This document shows positions 35,729 to 48,149 of a stretch of DNA of 64,000 bases, piece after piece. The notes beneath the pieces are model-generated. The model was not told the DNA's origin, did no database searches, and worked only from the letters and a program-made list of their open reading frames with translations. The number at the start of each line of letters is the position of its first letter. The first letter of the stretch is position 1. Origin of the DNA: Kineococcus sp. NBC_00420 (GTDB lineage Bacteria > Actinomycetota > Actinomycetes > Actinomycetales > Kineococcaceae). The DNA lies in contig NZ_CP107930.1 in the NCBI RefSeq assembly GCF_036021035.1, forward strand, positions 4,550,006 to 4,614,005, given 5' to 3'. The position numbers were made by a program, and so were the translations under genes.

Positions 35729-36901
35729 ATGCTCCGCTTCCCCGACGGCTTCCTCTGGGGTGCCGCCACCGCCGCCCACCAGATCGAGGGCGGCAACGTC
35801 GGCAGCAACTGGTGGGTGCACGAGCACGAAACCGGTACCTCGATCGTCGAGCCCTCTGGCGACGCCGCCGACAGCTACCACCGCTACCGCGAGGACATCC
35901 GGATCCTCGCCGACCTCGGGATGAACTCCTACCGGTTCAGCATCGAGTGGGCCCGCATCGAACCCGAACGGGGTTTCGTCTCCCGCGCGGCTCTCGACCA
36001 CTACCGGCGGATGGTCGACACCTGCCGCGAGTTCGGCATCGAGCCGGTCGTGACCCTCATGCACTTCACGGTGCCGCGCTGGTTCGAGCGCGACGGGTTC
36101 TGGCGCGCCGACGACGCCGTCGACCTGTTCGGCCGCTACGTGGAGGCGGCCCTGCCCGTCGTCCGCGACGTGGAGTGGGTCTGCACCATCAACGAACCCA
36201 ACATCGCGGCGATGCTGGCCGGGGGAGAGGATGCCTCGAACCTCGTCGCGCACGGTCTGCCGAACCCGGACCTGCACGTCGCCGACCAGCTGCTGGCGTC
36301 GCACGAACGCGCCCGCGACGTGCTCTCGCAGCTGCCGGAGGTGAAGTCCGGCTGGACGATCGCCACCCAGGCGTTCAGGAGCACGGGCGAACCGGGCGCG
36401 GAGGAGATGGTCCACACCTACGGCCACCCGCGCGACGACTGGTACCTGGAGAACTCCCAGGGCAACGACTTCGTCGGCGTGCAGGCCTACACCCGCACCT
36501 TCGTCGGCCCGGACGGCCCGGTCCCCGTGGCCGACGACGTCGAGACGACGCTCACCGGCTGGGAGTTCTACCCGCAGGCCGCGGCCGACGGGTTGCGCTC
36601 GGCCTGGGAACTCACCGGTGGTGTCCCGCTGATGGTCACCGAGAACGGCATCGCGACCGCCGACGACTCCCGTCGGATCGCCTACACCCAGGGTGCGCTC
36701 GAGGGGGTCCACGCGTGCCTCGAGGACGGGATCGACGTCCGCGGGTACCTGCACTGGAGCCTGCTCGACAACTACGAGTGGGCCTCGGGGTTCCGTCCCA
36801 CCTTCGGCCTGGTCGCCTGGGACCGCGAGACCTTCGAACGCCACCCCAAACCCTCTGCCCACTGGCTGGGTGAGGTTTCGAAGGCCAACGCCCTCCACTG
36901 A
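35729..36901 (+). CDS. Glycoside hydrolase family 1 beta-glucosidase
   Basis: A 390-residue cytoplasmic GH1 enzyme, slightly shorter than the usual 440-480. It begins RFPDGFLWGAATAAHQIEG. The acid/base Glu is in CTINEPNIAAM (about residue 156) and the nucleophile Glu in MVTENGIATADD (about residue 305). The C-terminal ending HWSLLDNYEWASGF is a GH1 hallmark. The deletion relative to family length lies between the two catalytic parts. GGAAGG precedes the ATG. It would split beta-glucosides taken up by the transporter. Its stop codon forms part of the 31-bp hairpin shared with copA. Confidence 0.95.
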   Translation: MLRFPDGFLWGAATAAHQIEGGNVGSNWWVHEHETGTSIVEPSGDAADSYHRYREDIRILADLGMNSYRFSIEWARIEPERGFVSRAALDHYRRMVDTCREFGIEPVVTLMHFTVPRWFERDGFWRADDAVDLFGRYVEAALPVVRDVEWVCTINEPNIAAMLAGGEDASNLVAHGLPNPDLHVADQLLASHERARDVLSQLPEVKSGWTIATQAFRSTGEPGAEEMVHTYGHPRDDWYLENSQGNDFVGVQAYTRTFVGPDGPVPVADDVETTLTGWEFYPQAAADGLRSAWELTGGVPLMVTENGIATADDSRRIAYTQGALEGVHACLEDGIDVRGYLHWSLLDNYEWASGFRPTFGLVAWDRETFERHPKPSAHWLGEVSKANALH

Positions 36902-36970
36902 CCAACTTCTGGGGAGCTTTCCACCCTTCTCGGCCCCCGGAAGGGTGGAAAGCTCCCCAGAAGTTGGTCA
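36899..36970. terminator. Perfect 31-bp inverted repeat joining the stop codons of the GH1 gene and copA
   Basis: Left arm 36899-36929 and right arm 36940-36970 are exact complements, 10-nt loop. The outermost three bases of each arm are the stop codons (TGA on each strand). The stem is partly A/T-containing (GGGGAGCTTTCCACCC), unlike surrounding DNA. Most likely a bidirectional terminator. Confidence 0.8.
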
Positions 36971-39163
36971 GCGGAAACGGCGCAGCCGCAGGGAGTTGGT
37001 GACGACGAACACCGACGAGAACGCCATCGCCGCGGACGCGACGACGGGGTTCAGCAGTCCGGCCGCCGCGACCGGCAGGGCCGCGACGTTGTAGGCGAAG
37101 GCCCAGAACAGGTTCCCGCGGATCGTGGACAGCGTGCGTCGGGCCAGCCGGACCGCGTCGACGGCGGCCTGCAGGTCGGCCCGCACCAGGGTGAGGTCGC
37201 TCGCCTCGATCGCCACGTCCGTGCCGCTGCCCATCGCGATGCCGAGGTCGGCGGTCGCGAGGGCCGCGGCGTCGTTGACGCCGTCCCCGACGACCGCGAC
37301 GACGTGCCCCGCGGCCTGCAACCGGGCGACGTGGGCGACCTTGTCCTCGGGAGCGACACCGGCGGTGACGTCGTCGATGCCGACGGCCGTGGCGACGGCC
37401 CGCGCCGTCCGCTCGTTGTCGCCCGTGAGCAGCACCGGGTGCAGGCCCAGCGACCGCAGACCGGCGACGGCGTCGGCGCTGGTGTCGCGCACGGTGTCCG
37501 CGACCGACAGCACGCCGAGGGCCCGGCCGGCGGAGGCGACCAGGACGGCCGTGCGTCCGGCGGACTCGGCCTGCTCCAGGGCGCCGGCGAGTTCCGCGGG
37601 CACGGGAACCCCCACCCAGTCGGGACGACCAGCGCGGACGGGCGAACCGTCGACGACGCCGGCGATCCCGGCCCCCGCCGCGGCGACCACGTCCCGCACG
37701 GGGGAGAGCGCGACCCGCGCCCGGGCCCCGGCGGCCAGCGCCCGGCCCACGGGGTGCTCCGAGGCGTCCTCGAGCGAACCGGCCGCTCGCAGCAGGTCCT
37801 CGGGGGACACCCCGGCCGCGGGCACGACGTCGACGAGGGCCATCCGGCCGCTCGTCACGGTGCCGGTCTTGTCGAGCACGACGGTGTCGATGCGGCGGGT
37901 GGACTCCAGGACCTCCGGGCCCTTCACGAGGATCCCCAGCTGGGCGCCGCGCCCGGTGCCGACCAGCAGCGCGGTCGGGGTCGCGAGCCCGAGCGCGCAC
38001 GGACAGGCGATGACGAGGACCGCCACGGCCGTCGTCAGGGCCGCACCGGGGGAGGCCCCGGCCAGCAGCCAGCCGATGAGGGTCGCCACCGCCCCGATGA
38101 GGACGACGGGCACGAAGATCCCCGACACCTGGTCCGCGAGTCGTTGCGCCGCAGCCTTTCCCGACTGGGCCGCCTCGACGAGGCGACCGATCCGGGCGAG
38201 CTGGGTGTCGGCCCCGACGCGCGTGGCCCGCACGACGAGGCGGCCGCCGGCGTTGACGGTGCCGCCGACGACGGCGTCACCCGCGCTGACCTCGACGGGG
38301 ACGGTCTCACCCGTGACGATGCTGAGGTCGATGGCGGAGGATCCCTCGAGCACCGTGCCGTCGGTCGCGACCGTCTCACCCGGGCGGACGACGAACCGGT
38401 TCCCGACCCGCAGTTCCGCGATCGGGACGCGACGTTCCCCGGTGTCGTCGAGGAGCCCGACGTCCTTGGCCCCCAACGCCAGCAGGGCCCGCAGTGCGGC
38501 GCCGGAACTGCGCCGGGCCCGGGCCTCCAGGTAGCGCCCGACGAGCACGAACACGGTGACGACCGCGGCGACCTCGAGGTAGAGCTCGTCGCCGGTGGAG
38601 CCGAAGAGCGAGAACTCCATGTGCATCCCGGGCATCCCCGCGTCACCGAGGAACAGCGACACCAGCGACGTGGCGAACGCGGCGATCACGCCCAGGCTGA
38701 CGAGGGTGTCCATGGTCGCCGCACCGTGGCGGGCGTTCACGAACGCGGCGCGGTGGAACGGCCACGCACCCCAGACCGCGACCGGGGCGGTCAGGGTGAG
38801 GGCCAGCCACTGCCAGTTGGTGAACTGCAGGGCGGGGACCATCGAGAGCAGCAGGACGGGCAGCCCCAGCGCGGCGGAGACCAGGACCCGGCGCCGCAGG
38901 ACCTCCGTCGCCGGATCCCCTTGGGAGACCACGGGTTCGCGCTCAGGGAGGGGGGTGGGCACGGTGGCGGTGTAACCCGTCGCCTCGACGACCTCGATCG
39001 CCGCCTCGACGGCGGTGCCGACGGGCAGCAGGACGTGCGCCTTCTCCGTCGCGTAGTTGACGCTCGCCTCGACGCCCGGCATCCGGTTGAGCTTCTTCTC
39101 GACGCGGTTCGCGCAGGACGCGCACGTCATGCCGCCGATGAGCAGTTCGACCCGATCGCTCAC
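36968..39163 (-). CDS. copA: Copper-exporting P1B-type ATPase
   Basis: A 731-residue copper pump. N-terminal heavy-metal-associated domain with GGMTCASC (about residues 10-17), eight membrane segments, intramembrane metal site CPCALGLATP, phosphorylation motif DKTGTVTSG, SEHPVGRAL (the HP motif), and hinge VGDGVNDAAAL. A Met/His-rich loop GMPGMHMEF lies after the third hydrophobic segment. GTG start is 4 nt after the copZ stop. Expels Cu(I) from the cytoplasm; controlled by CsoR with copZ. Confidence 0.96.
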   Translation of the reverse strand: MSDRVELLIGGMTCASCANRVEKKLNRMPGVEASVNYATEKAHVLLPVGTAVEAAIEVVEATGYTATVPTPLPEREPVVSQGDPATEVLRRRVLVSAALGLPVLLLSMVPALQFTNWQWLALTLTAPVAVWGAWPFHRAAFVNARHGAATMDTLVSLGVIAAFATSLVSLFLGDAGMPGMHMEFSLFGSTGDELYLEVAAVVTVFVLVGRYLEARARRSSGAALRALLALGAKDVGLLDDTGERRVPIAELRVGNRFVVRPGETVATDGTVLEGSSAIDLSIVTGETVPVEVSAGDAVVGGTVNAGGRLVVRATRVGADTQLARIGRLVEAAQSGKAAAQRLADQVSGIFVPVVLIGAVATLIGWLLAGASPGAALTTAVAVLVIACPCALGLATPTALLVGTGRGAQLGILVKGPEVLESTRRIDTVVLDKTGTVTSGRMALVDVVPAAGVSPEDLLRAAGSLEDASEHPVGRALAAGARARVALSPVRDVVAAAGAGIAGVVDGSPVRAGRPDWVGVPVPAELAGALEQAESAGRTAVLVASAGRALGVLSVADTVRDTSADAVAGLRSLGLHPVLLTGDNERTARAVATAVGIDDVTAGVAPEDKVAHVARLQAAGHVVAVVGDGVNDAAALATADLGIAMGSGTDVAIEASDLTLVRADLQAAVDAVRLARRTLSTIRGNLFWAFAYNVAALPVAAAGLLNPVVASAAMAFSSVFVVTNSLRLRRFR

Positions 39164-39167
39164 CGGG

Positions 39168-39377
39168 TCACTCCGCCAGCTCGTACCCCGCCTCGTCCAC
39201 GGCGGCGGTGACCGCGGCCCGGTCGAGGGGGGAGGTGCTCGTCACGTGCACGGTGGAGTTCCCGCCGGGCACGAGGGTGATGCGGACGTCGGTGACACCG
39301 GGCAGGGCCGAGACCTCCTCGGTCACCGCCCGCACGCAGTGCTCGCACGTCATGCCGGACACGTCGAACTCGTTCAT
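39168..39377 (-). CDS. copZ: Copper chaperone CopZ
   Basis: A 69-residue HMA-domain protein carrying the Cu(I)-binding GMTCEHC motif near the N-terminus (NEFDVSGMTCEHCVRAV) and the ferredoxin-like beta-alpha-beta pattern to the end (AAVDEAGYELAE). It delivers copper to CopA and to CsoR. The ATG at 39377 gives the family length; an ATG at 39404 overlaps the csoR stop (ATGA) and would add MSDVGSEAT. The second gene of the csoR-copZ-copA operon. Confidence 0.9.
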   Translation of the reverse strand: MNEFDVSGMTCEHCVRAVTEEVSALPGVTDVRITLVPGGNSTVHVTSTSPLDRAAVTAAVDEAGYELAE

Positions 39378-39400
39378 CGTCGCCTCACTCCCGACGTCAC

Positions 39401-39691
39401 TCATGACTTCACCAACCGCGCGATGGCTGCGCTGGCTTCCTTGATCTTGGCGTCCGCGACCGGACCACCCTCGGCGACCGCCTGCGCGACGCAGTGCCCG
39501 AGGTGGTCGTCGAGCAGCGACAGCGCGACGGCCTGCAGGGCCTTCGTCGCCGCCGAGACCTGCGTCAGGACGTCGATGCAGTAGACGTCCTCCTCGACCA
39601 TGCGTTGCAGGCCACGGACCTGGCCCTCGATCCGGCGCAGGCGCTTCAGGACCTCGTCCTTCTCGCCGGCGTACCCGACTGCGTTCTCCAT
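39401..39691 (-). CDS. csoR: Copper-sensing repressor CsoR
   Basis: A 96-residue four-helix repressor. The Cu(I)-binding Cys-His-Cys set is visible: Cys in EEDVYCIDVL, His and Cys in DDHLGHCVAQ. The basic DNA-contact helix is LKRLRRIEGQVRGLQRM, typical of the family. It is first in the operon. The ATG is only 6 nt from a -10 box, so the message is probably leaderless. Copper binding would release the operators found just upstream. Confidence 0.94.
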   Translation of the reverse strand: MENAVGYAGEKDEVLKRLRRIEGQVRGLQRMVEEDVYCIDVLTQVSAATKALQAVALSLLDDHLGHCVAQAVAEGGPVADAKIKEASAAIARLVKS

Positions 39692-39697
39692 GACTCC

Positions 39698-39745
39698 TTG
39701 ATACCCCCCTGGGGTTCCTCCTGCAACCCCTACCCCCTAGGGGTA
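39698..39745 (-). promoter_or_regulatory. csoR promoter with two CsoR-type operators
   Basis: Minus-strand TTGCAG (39726-39721), 17-nt spacer, TATCAA (39703-39698). Operator-like sequences ATACCCCCCTGGGGTT (39701-39716), lying inside the promoter, and TACCCCCTAGGGGTA (39731-39745), just upstream of the -35, both match the G/C-tract palindrome known for CsoR sites. Confidence 0.7.
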
Positions 39746-39780
39746 AGACGAAGCGGCGGCGGCGGGGTGACACTGGGGGC

Positions 39781-40986
39781 GTGCCGAGCACCCTCCCCGA
39801 CGGCGAGTCCGTCCCGACCGACGGGTCGCTGCCCCCCGACGCCCTGCGCGGCGCGGCGGACCGCACCTTCGGCGTCTACCTGCACGTCCCGTTCTGCTCG
39901 GTGCGCTGCGGCTACTGCGACTTCAACACCTACACCGCCACCGAGCTCGGCGGTGGTGGCTCGCAGGCCGCGTACGCCGCGACCGCCGCGCAGGAGGTCC
40001 ACCTCGCCGCCCGCGTGCTCGGGGACGCCGTCCGGCCCGCCGAGACCGTCTTCTTCGGCGGCGGGACCCCGACGCTGCTCCCGGCCGCCGACCTCGAGCT
40101 GATGCTGGGCGCCGTCCGCGACGAACTCGGCATCGCGCCCGGCGCCGAGGTGACCACCGAGGCGAACCCGGACTCCGTCACCCCCGAGGGCCTGCAGCGC
40201 CTCGCCGCGGCGGGTTTCACCCGGGTGTCCTTCGGGATGCAGTCCGCCGTCCCGCACGTCCTCGCCGTGCTGGAACGGACCCACGACCCGGCCCGCGTGC
40301 CGCTCGCCGTGCGCTGGGCCCGGGAGGCGGGGCTGGAGGTCAGCCTCGACCTCATCTACGGCACGCCGGGGGAGTCGCTGGACGACCTGCGCGTCAGCCT
40401 CGACGCGGCGCTGTCCTGCGAACCCGACCACGTCTCGGCCTACGCCCTCATCGTCGAGCAGGGGACGAAGCTCGCCGGGCAGATGCGCCGCGGCGAGGTC
40501 CCGGAACCCTCCGACGACGACGAGGCCGACAAGTACGAGATCGTCGACGACACCCTCGCGGCCGCAGGCTTCTCCTGGTACGAGGTCAGCAACTGGGCGC
40601 GTGAGCCCCGCTTCGCCTGCCGGCACAACCTCGCCTACTGGCGCGGCGGCGACTGGTGGGGGATCGGCCCCGGAGCGCACAGCCACGTCGGGGGCGTGCG
40701 GTGGTGGAACGTCAAGCACCCCACGGCCTACGCCGGCCGCATCGGCGCCGGGGAGTCCCCGGCCCACGCCCGCGAGGTCCTGGCCGCCGAGGACCGCCGC
40801 GTCGAGGACGTGCTGCTGCGGTCCCGGCTGTCCGAGGGTTTCGACCCCGCCTGGTGGGGGGTGCGGACGGAGACCGCCCAGCTGCTCCTCGACGGCCTCC
40901 TCGAGCCGGCCCCCGGCGGCCGGGTCGCGCTGACCCGCCGCGGCCGGTTGCTGGCCGACGCGGTCGTGCGTCGGCTCCTGGCCTGA
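39781..40986 (+). CDS. hemW: Radical SAM haem chaperone HemW (coproporphyrinogen III oxidase-like)
   Basis: A 401-residue radical SAM protein. The cluster motif is CSVRCGYCDF (CxxxCxxC), with the glycine-rich FFGGGTPTLLP SAM contact, RVSFGMQSA, and the HemW ending domain (VEDVLLRSRLSEGFD). Such proteins bind haem and are related to but distinct from HemN; in actinobacteria the annotation as CPO III is often wrong. GTG start 39781; a -10-like GACACT lies 6 nt upstream. It is divergent from csoR and shares its 89-nt gap. Confidence 0.93.
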   Translation: MPSTLPDGESVPTDGSLPPDALRGAADRTFGVYLHVPFCSVRCGYCDFNTYTATELGGGGSQAAYAATAAQEVHLAARVLGDAVRPAETVFFGGGTPTLLPAADLELMLGAVRDELGIAPGAEVTTEANPDSVTPEGLQRLAAAGFTRVSFGMQSAVPHVLAVLERTHDPARVPLAVRWAREAGLEVSLDLIYGTPGESLDDLRVSLDAALSCEPDHVSAYALIVEQGTKLAGQMRRGEVPEPSDDDEADKYEIVDDTLAAAGFSWYEVSNWAREPRFACRHNLAYWRGGDWWGIGPGAHSHVGGVRWWNVKHPTAYAGRIGAGESPAHAREVLAAEDRRVEDVLLRSRLSEGFDPAWWGVRTETAQLLLDGLLEPAPGGRVALTRRGRLLADAVVRRLLA

Positions 40987-46242: not shown

Positions 46243-46248
46243 CCCGCA

Positions 46249-46283
46249 CCGTGATCTTGCTGGGAGACCCAGCAAGATCACGG
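46249..46283. terminator. Bidirectional terminator after dnaJ
   Basis: Perfect 16-bp inverted repeat, arm CCGTGATCTTGCTGGG, 3-nt loop, between convergent stops. Confidence 0.8.
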
Positions 46284-46296
46284 AACGGGAGGAGGG

Positions 46297-47963: not shown

Positions 47964-48079
47964 GACCACCCGCTCCTTCGTCACCATCACAGTGCACAGA
48001 CGAGTCACGCAGGGTCACGGTTGACATCCAACCGGAGATCTTTTGCGGACTCGTCGGGGGCACGCCGCGTCCGCCGGGT

Positions 48080-48132
48080 GGGATCGTTGCCTCCCCGGTG
48101 ACGTCTGGTGGGACCGGGGAGGCAACGATCCC
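48080..48132. repeat. Perfect 20-bp inverted repeat in a divergent intergenic region
   Basis: Arms 48080-48099 and 48113-48132 (GGGATCGTTGCCTCCCCGGT and its complement), loop of 13 nt. It looks like the terminators elsewhere in the window but lies between divergent genes (sigma factor and HIT), upstream of both predicted promoters. Its role is unclear. Confidence 0.7.
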
Positions 48133-48149
48133 CCACGGAGACGGCCCGG

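Follow-up and report, generated by a model that had tools for sequence, protein, structure and literature searches.

What keeps alike the two arms of a long hairpin lying between convergent genes, when its outermost bases belong to the stop codons of both? This question arises at the junction of a GH1-type glycosidase gene and copA (Table 1) in the window considered here, i.e., the whole stretch of 64,000 nucleotides of the Kineococcus sp. NBC_00420 genome that was subjected to analysis. The initial annotation of this window described a perfect 31-bp hairpin ending in the two TGA codons and argued that its length and perfection exceed those of a normal terminator and must be due to selection, gene conversion between the arms or recent origin. 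The structure itself was confirmed, the arms being fully complementary and both stops being contained in the hairpin.

Table 1. Features of the junction between the GH1 gene and copA (positions in the window).
Feature	Position	Strand	Remarks
Left arm of the 31-bp perfect hairpin	36899..36929	+	Opens with the GH1 stop TGA; TGACC...CCTTC
Loop, 10 nt	36930..36939	+	Barely conserved across the hairpin family
Right arm	36940..36970	+	Closes with TCA, reverse complement of the copA stop TGA; GAAGG...GGTCA
Extended 36-nt arms	36894..36975 (36894-36929/36940-36975)	.	One mismatch, 97% complementary
Unit common to 20 genomic copies	36903..36966	.	Pairwise identity drops to about background outside
GH1-type glycosidase gene	35729..36901	+	Stop 36899-36901, inside left arm
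copA, copper-type P1B ATPase gene	36968..39163	-	Stop 36968-36970, inside right arm

The assignment of copA relies on a match to TIGR01511 (511.3 bits, above the cut-off of 397), while the top NCBIfam match of its convergent neighbor, TIGR03356, reaches 260.6 bits and stays under the cut-off of 478.5. Just upstream of copA, at 39168-39866, there are frames which by eye resemble those of an HMA-domain metal chaperone and a regulator of CsoR type, the whole being presumably an ordinary copper-response cluster. The predicted RNA fold of the hairpin has an energy of -88.1 kcal/mol (z -13.4); none of 200 shuffled sequences folded as well, and this, together with the existence of 20 homologous copies, rules out a chance palindrome. 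In a census of gene-junction hairpins over 464 kb of the same genome it scores 34, the next best scoring 23. A known RNA family was discarded too, since no Rfam model matched the window at gathering score, the 59 sub-threshold hits to the hairpin stretch being mostly microRNA stems; an integron attC site was judged unlikely because of the near-perfect pairing and because no cassette array was noticed.

Searching the genome for the arm sequence, which the initial annotation had suggested, revealed that the hairpin is not solitary. BLAST and a covariance model, built from the 19 copies found first, detected in the own genome (G000, 5.43 Mb, one contig) 20 copies of a hairpin of about 58 bp with common arms (approximately ACTTCTGGGGAnnTTTCCACCCTTCC), which thus constitute a dispersed stem-loop family with several intergenic copies of shared sequence and structure; two extra weak matches of the model turned out to be a different hairpin. 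The distance from the block CTYCTGGG to its mirror image is 58 nt in 17 of 19 copies, 59 in one and 56 in one. The arms of about 27 nt comprise two better conserved blocks, an outer one around ACTTCTG and a loop-proximal one around CCACCCTTC, separated by a covarying middle part of the stem, and the loop is nearly free to vary. Boundaries of the unit are sharp, with identity about background just beyond the stem on both sides, save for a mild C bias 8-13 nt out. Single arms were not encountered, as BLAST of the hairpin against the genome returned, besides the hairpins, only 12 pieces, none of them with an E value better than 0.98, i.e., at chance level. The copy in the window possesses the longest unbroken stem among those of its genome. 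Perfection is not general in the family, since over 25 pairs it is seen in only five of the 20 own copies and in 11 of the 74 aligned from all genomes (see below).

The copies are clustered along the chromosome, with two gaps below 2 kb (reached in 161 of 20000 simulations) and seven below 30 kb (19 of 20000). Nearby copies are not more alike than distant ones (Mantel r 0.037, a value attained in 1117 of 5000 permutations), and local duplication as their source was rejected, because the copies cluster and yet close ones show no greater likeness. As a separate observation, pairs of copies separated by 1.07-1.25 kb, an interval holding one or two genes, occur in G000, in the congener G004 and in G033 (L010 2444-3626, L022 2538-3846, L081 2229-3458, and L089 2103-3240).

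Positioning of the family relative to genes, called by a simple GC3 gene caller, is biased towards 3′ ends. In the own genome, 13 of 20 copies are flanked by the ends of convergent genes, the other seven follow immediately on a single gene, and all 33 gene ends facing a copy are within 26 nt of it; at 12 of these 33 the stop lies 3-4 nt outside the block CTYCTGGG, while stops paired at both ends of the stem are a trait of the window copy. Six of the seven single-gene copies are closer to the upstream stop than to the downstream gene. Among 74 copies aligned from nine genomes, 33 are convergent, 35 have a single gene, two are between divergent genes and four lack a called neighbor on one side; some gene distances come out negative, pointing to errors of the gene caller. 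Nearness to the stop over all single-gene copies is modest (24 of 35 closer to it than to the next gene, p 0.04). The background for this was given by the census, in which a hairpin scoring at least 14 is present at 20 of the 70 convergent junctions, 9 of the 226 tandem ones and 1 of the 67 divergent ones, five more such hairpins being wholly within coding sequence (Fisher test, convergent versus divergent 5e-6, versus tandem 5e-8). For 400 kb of the congener G007 the respective values are 9 of 60, 20 of 245 and 0 of 56, with two wholly coding, i.e., its hairpins are less bound to convergent junctions. Thus hairpins at 3′ ends are common here, and it is by length and by common sequence that the present ones stand out.

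The family and its relatives in other genomes lay beyond the view of the initial annotation. A search at the DNA level found no match in ten congeneric genomes; of the 39 genomes searched, two gave matches, namely the own one and G033, which belongs to another family. With the own genome counted, matches of the covariance model were obtained at E<=0.01 in 14 of 297 genomes of the order, at E<=1e-4 in 24 of the 394 from the class and at E<=1e-6 in two of the 396 from the phylum, where the best 12-17 candidates per genome were scored and carriers may hence exceed these counts. Many weaker matches are other long hairpins, and several from the class look unrelated by eye and were not used. Multi-copy relatives of near-equal length are present in G382 (33 strand matches, about 17 sites), G413, G377, G033 and the congener G004, and fewer or weaker ones in G307, G551 and G395. 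Since stem models, as evidenced by the sub-threshold Rfam hits, give a score to any long stem, arm sequence was scored without structure. This score sets true relatives apart: the 59 ordinary hairpins taken from G000 and G007 are without exception at -17.8 or lower, when the left arm alone at the best of 18 offsets is taken for the ordinary hairpins and the better of two arms at the best of 13 for foreign copies. It is positive for 12 of 12 copies of G413, 11 of 11 of G382, 10 of 10 of G377, 2 of 3 of G307, 2 of 2 of G551, 2 of 5 of G395, 6 of 7 of G004, 6 of 6 of G033 and 2 of 2 of G213, being low in G377 (best 21.7) and G307 (best 6.6); matches in G006 (0 of 4) and G011 (0 of 3) are other hairpins. 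The sites read were 11 in G382, 12 in G413 and 10 in G377, among those listed. The 74-row alignment (A2) unites 20 own and 54 foreign copies, includes the negative scorers L178, L182, L183 and L185, and excludes the G004 matches L084 and L085 as well as everything from G006, G011 and G213.

Arm identity averages 0.815 within and 0.637 between genomes (0 of 500 permutations), so related families have host-specific sequence dialects. Presence is patchy even within genera (in the own genus, 2 of 11 genomes, G000 and G004) and concerns a minority of the Actinomycetes searched. A pattern scan of a contig collection, which may lack the own genome, gave 24 stretches, of which 20 do not fold as the window hairpin and the four that do belong to one Actinomycetes MAG (JAJYTA, DX1.bin79), by coordinates the same as G382. 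Exact matches to the loop-proximal palindrome pattern occur in just two of 394 genomes, the own one and G382, which rules out that the inner motif reflects a general actinobacterial preference. Phage and plasmid collections contained no match to the family.

At the one orthologous junction that is well resolved, a hairpin keeps its place rather than its sequence. The 3′ end of pstB, which holds a family copy in G000, is followed at the equivalent place by a hairpin recognized by script in nine of ten congeners, with arms of 15-31 nt and visibly different sequences (one scores only 9 and one has Ns in the loop), and the tenth (L194) has a bulged hairpin, seen by eye. Position is thus kept and sequence replaced. 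Behind copA, a hairpin with 24-nt arms of other sequence is found in G005, where the facing frame ends by eye like the GH1 protein, and one weak inverted repeat detected by script inside the coding end in G010; in the other genomes of the nine that were read by copA regardless of a GH1 neighbor, none was found.

The fate of the arms can be judged from paired changes. In the own genome, where 19 copies had been retrieved by sequence, both partners of a pair are changed in 29 cells, compared with 17.1 after shuffling (0 of 500), whereas the number of pairs so changed (8 versus 7.4) and of further pair types (22 versus 22.9) does not exceed shuffles. For all 74 copies, 313 such cells stand against 84.1 (0 of 500; best slid version 65) and 22 of 25 pairs against 17.1, a result biased towards pairing because foreign copies were retrieved with a model of the same stem. 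Taken together, both sets show that the stem stays paired even as its bases are exchanged. The interpretation of the initial annotation is thus supported in part: of the three causes proposed there, mere recent copying is insufficient, and selection and correction between the arms are not told apart by these data. It was also reasoned there that arms diverged with uncompensated changes in close relatives would betray chance or recent copying only, and this is found in part: at two orthologous pairs from the sister species G551 and G395 the copies stay put, the three changes that fall in the 25-pair stem lack compensation, and one just beyond the stem creates a new pair.

We consider it probable that the window hairpin is a bidirectional U-less terminator or 3′-end hairpin drawn from the dispersed family. 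A stable hairpin does follow the stop codon closely, and a U-rich tract of the canonical L-shape is missing over 94 gene ends, the 10 nt after the stem containing on average 1.4 U, about as expected at G+C of 0.70-0.72, which leaves the I-shaped kind of terminator as the only option. Whether terminators need a U-tract at all, and hence termination by U-less hairpins, is disputed, the titles of Ahmad 2020 and Czyz 2014, both cited in PMC12288462, being opposed. The hairpin would most likely serve as an I-shaped intrinsic terminator for the GH1 gene and copA simultaneously, and may also cap both mRNAs and protect their 3′ ends; the family sits at 20 gene ends of the genome, appears to have displaced older unrelated terminator hairpins there, and seems to have been copied around it. 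In mycobacteria, terminators that lack a U-tract and are located no more than 50 bp from stops are described as the predominant kind (PMC12288462), and long stable hairpins with few Us are described in Streptomyces (PMC12207403). Bidirectional I-shaped terminators of high-GC actinobacteria resemble the present case in a stable GC-rich hairpin right after the stops, in being shared by convergent genes and in the lack of a U-tract; the family differs in its arms of about 27 nt (31-36 here), in sequence common to 20 loci and in near-fixed 58-bp geometry, and termination by it is what we infer. A mere terminator has no need of conserved arm sequence, which counts against this reading, as do the two copies between divergent genes, the only modest nearness of single copies to stops, the low U content after the stem, the lack of a clear GU excess (see below) and the placement seen in G007.

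An unlikely alternative is a non-autonomous mobile hairpin of REPIN or MITE type that copies itself into harmless gene ends, terminator activity being incidental. Many copies with sharp ends, species dialects, patchy presence and chromosomal clustering would all fit it, and REPINs or REP elements with their RAYT (PMC3116915) are likewise dispersed extragenic hairpins of genome-specific sequence; the 20 extragenic palindromes agree with this description. In contrast to them, the family sits by stop codons, six of seven own single-gene copies being next to it instead of at some random point of the spacer, and the own genome, in which alone Y1_Tnp was sought, encodes no RAYT-type Y1 (HUH) transposase over the cut-off (PF01797 best E 0.185, 13.9 bits, cut-off 23). 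Neither a phage or plasmid match nor an empty site at pstB, the one junction compared well, was obtained, close copies are not more alike, and dead copies would not be expected to show paired changes in the stem. A bolder view, in our estimate still less likely, would make the family a hitherto undescribed kind of near-fixed-length hairpins of Actinomycetes, at which some factor ends transcripts and which it copies between gene ends without RAYT, periodically replacing terminators by one homogenised dialect.

Arms might instead be kept alike mainly by replication template switching (quasipalindrome correction) and not by selection on RNA pairing, which we hold to be improbable. A single such event is able to create a perfect stem or repair it (PMC8794818). 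For terminators of Bacillus, GU is given as the most frequent intermediate (PMC5381666); unlike there, a clear excess of GU over AC mismatches in the sense strand is absent among the 35 single-gene family copies (27 versus 22; 30 versus 23 in an earlier version). The own copies alone have 7 GU and 10 AC, and 26 ordinary tandem hairpins have 14 and 5. Lacking a clear skew, DNA-level arm correction may share in the upkeep of the stem; selection and template-switch correction are not separable by mismatch counts. Still, imperfections within the 25 pairs occur in 15 of 20 own copies, and none of the three orthologous in-stem changes was compensated, so correction is not efficient, and it leaves the conserved blocks, near-fixed length and 3′-end placement unexplained.

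Improbable to the same degree is that the hairpin is primarily a binding or cleavage site, in DNA or RNA, for a specific protein, with termination secondary. Near-fixed length would suit such a site, and so would the columns invariant or at least 90% conserved across the 74 copies of nine genomes (C6, T7, T10, G11, A23, C24, C29 and five partners), which fall in the outer and loop-proximal parts of the stem and leave the middle variable. This conservation is partly selected for, because a model of these very blocks served to find the foreign copies, and other junctions use quite different hairpins.

Two further systems invite comparison with the family. DNA uptake sequences form terminator hairpins in Neisseria and Pasteurellaceae (PMC1852404) and are alike in being dispersed sequences arranged in inverted pairs and enriched between convergent genes; they differ in their abundance as single motifs, which BLAST did not find in G000, in about a thousand or more copies instead of 20 and in arms of 9-11 instead of about 27 nt. 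Surveys of 40 genomes distinguished 92 families of bacterial stem-loop sequences (PMC2267715, PMC1590033), which resemble ours as repeated intergenic stem-loops, such structures being concentrated 3′ of genes. Among the best-ranked open-licence papers on dispersed palindromes, stem-loop families and Kineococcus, none was recognized as describing the present family. The family suggests that terminators, usually held to evolve site by site, can give way to copies of a single hairpin. Its sets of paralogues, rich in paired changes, might separate selection on pairing from arm correction at the DNA level, and 20 natural variants of a U-less hairpin offer material on how high-GC actinobacteria end their transcripts.

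Other hairpins of recurring sequence were noticed in passing. Another long hairpin, with the arm GGGATCGTTGCCTCCCCGGT, occupies 48074-48138 of the window, and its arm sequence recurs in a second hairpin within L236, so that the two possibly represent another dispersed family. The core CGTGATCT is common to gene-end hairpins at 46243-46289 of the window and in L231 and L236, a possible further sequence family of terminators. A different type, GCGGAAACAAC... with TTCCGCCC, is present in G000 (L078, L079, and L234), and in the congener G006 the same GCGGAAACAAC... type carries GTGGAAAACACTCTTTCCGCCCTTC (four copies read, L091-L094), in both genomes at or near gene ends.
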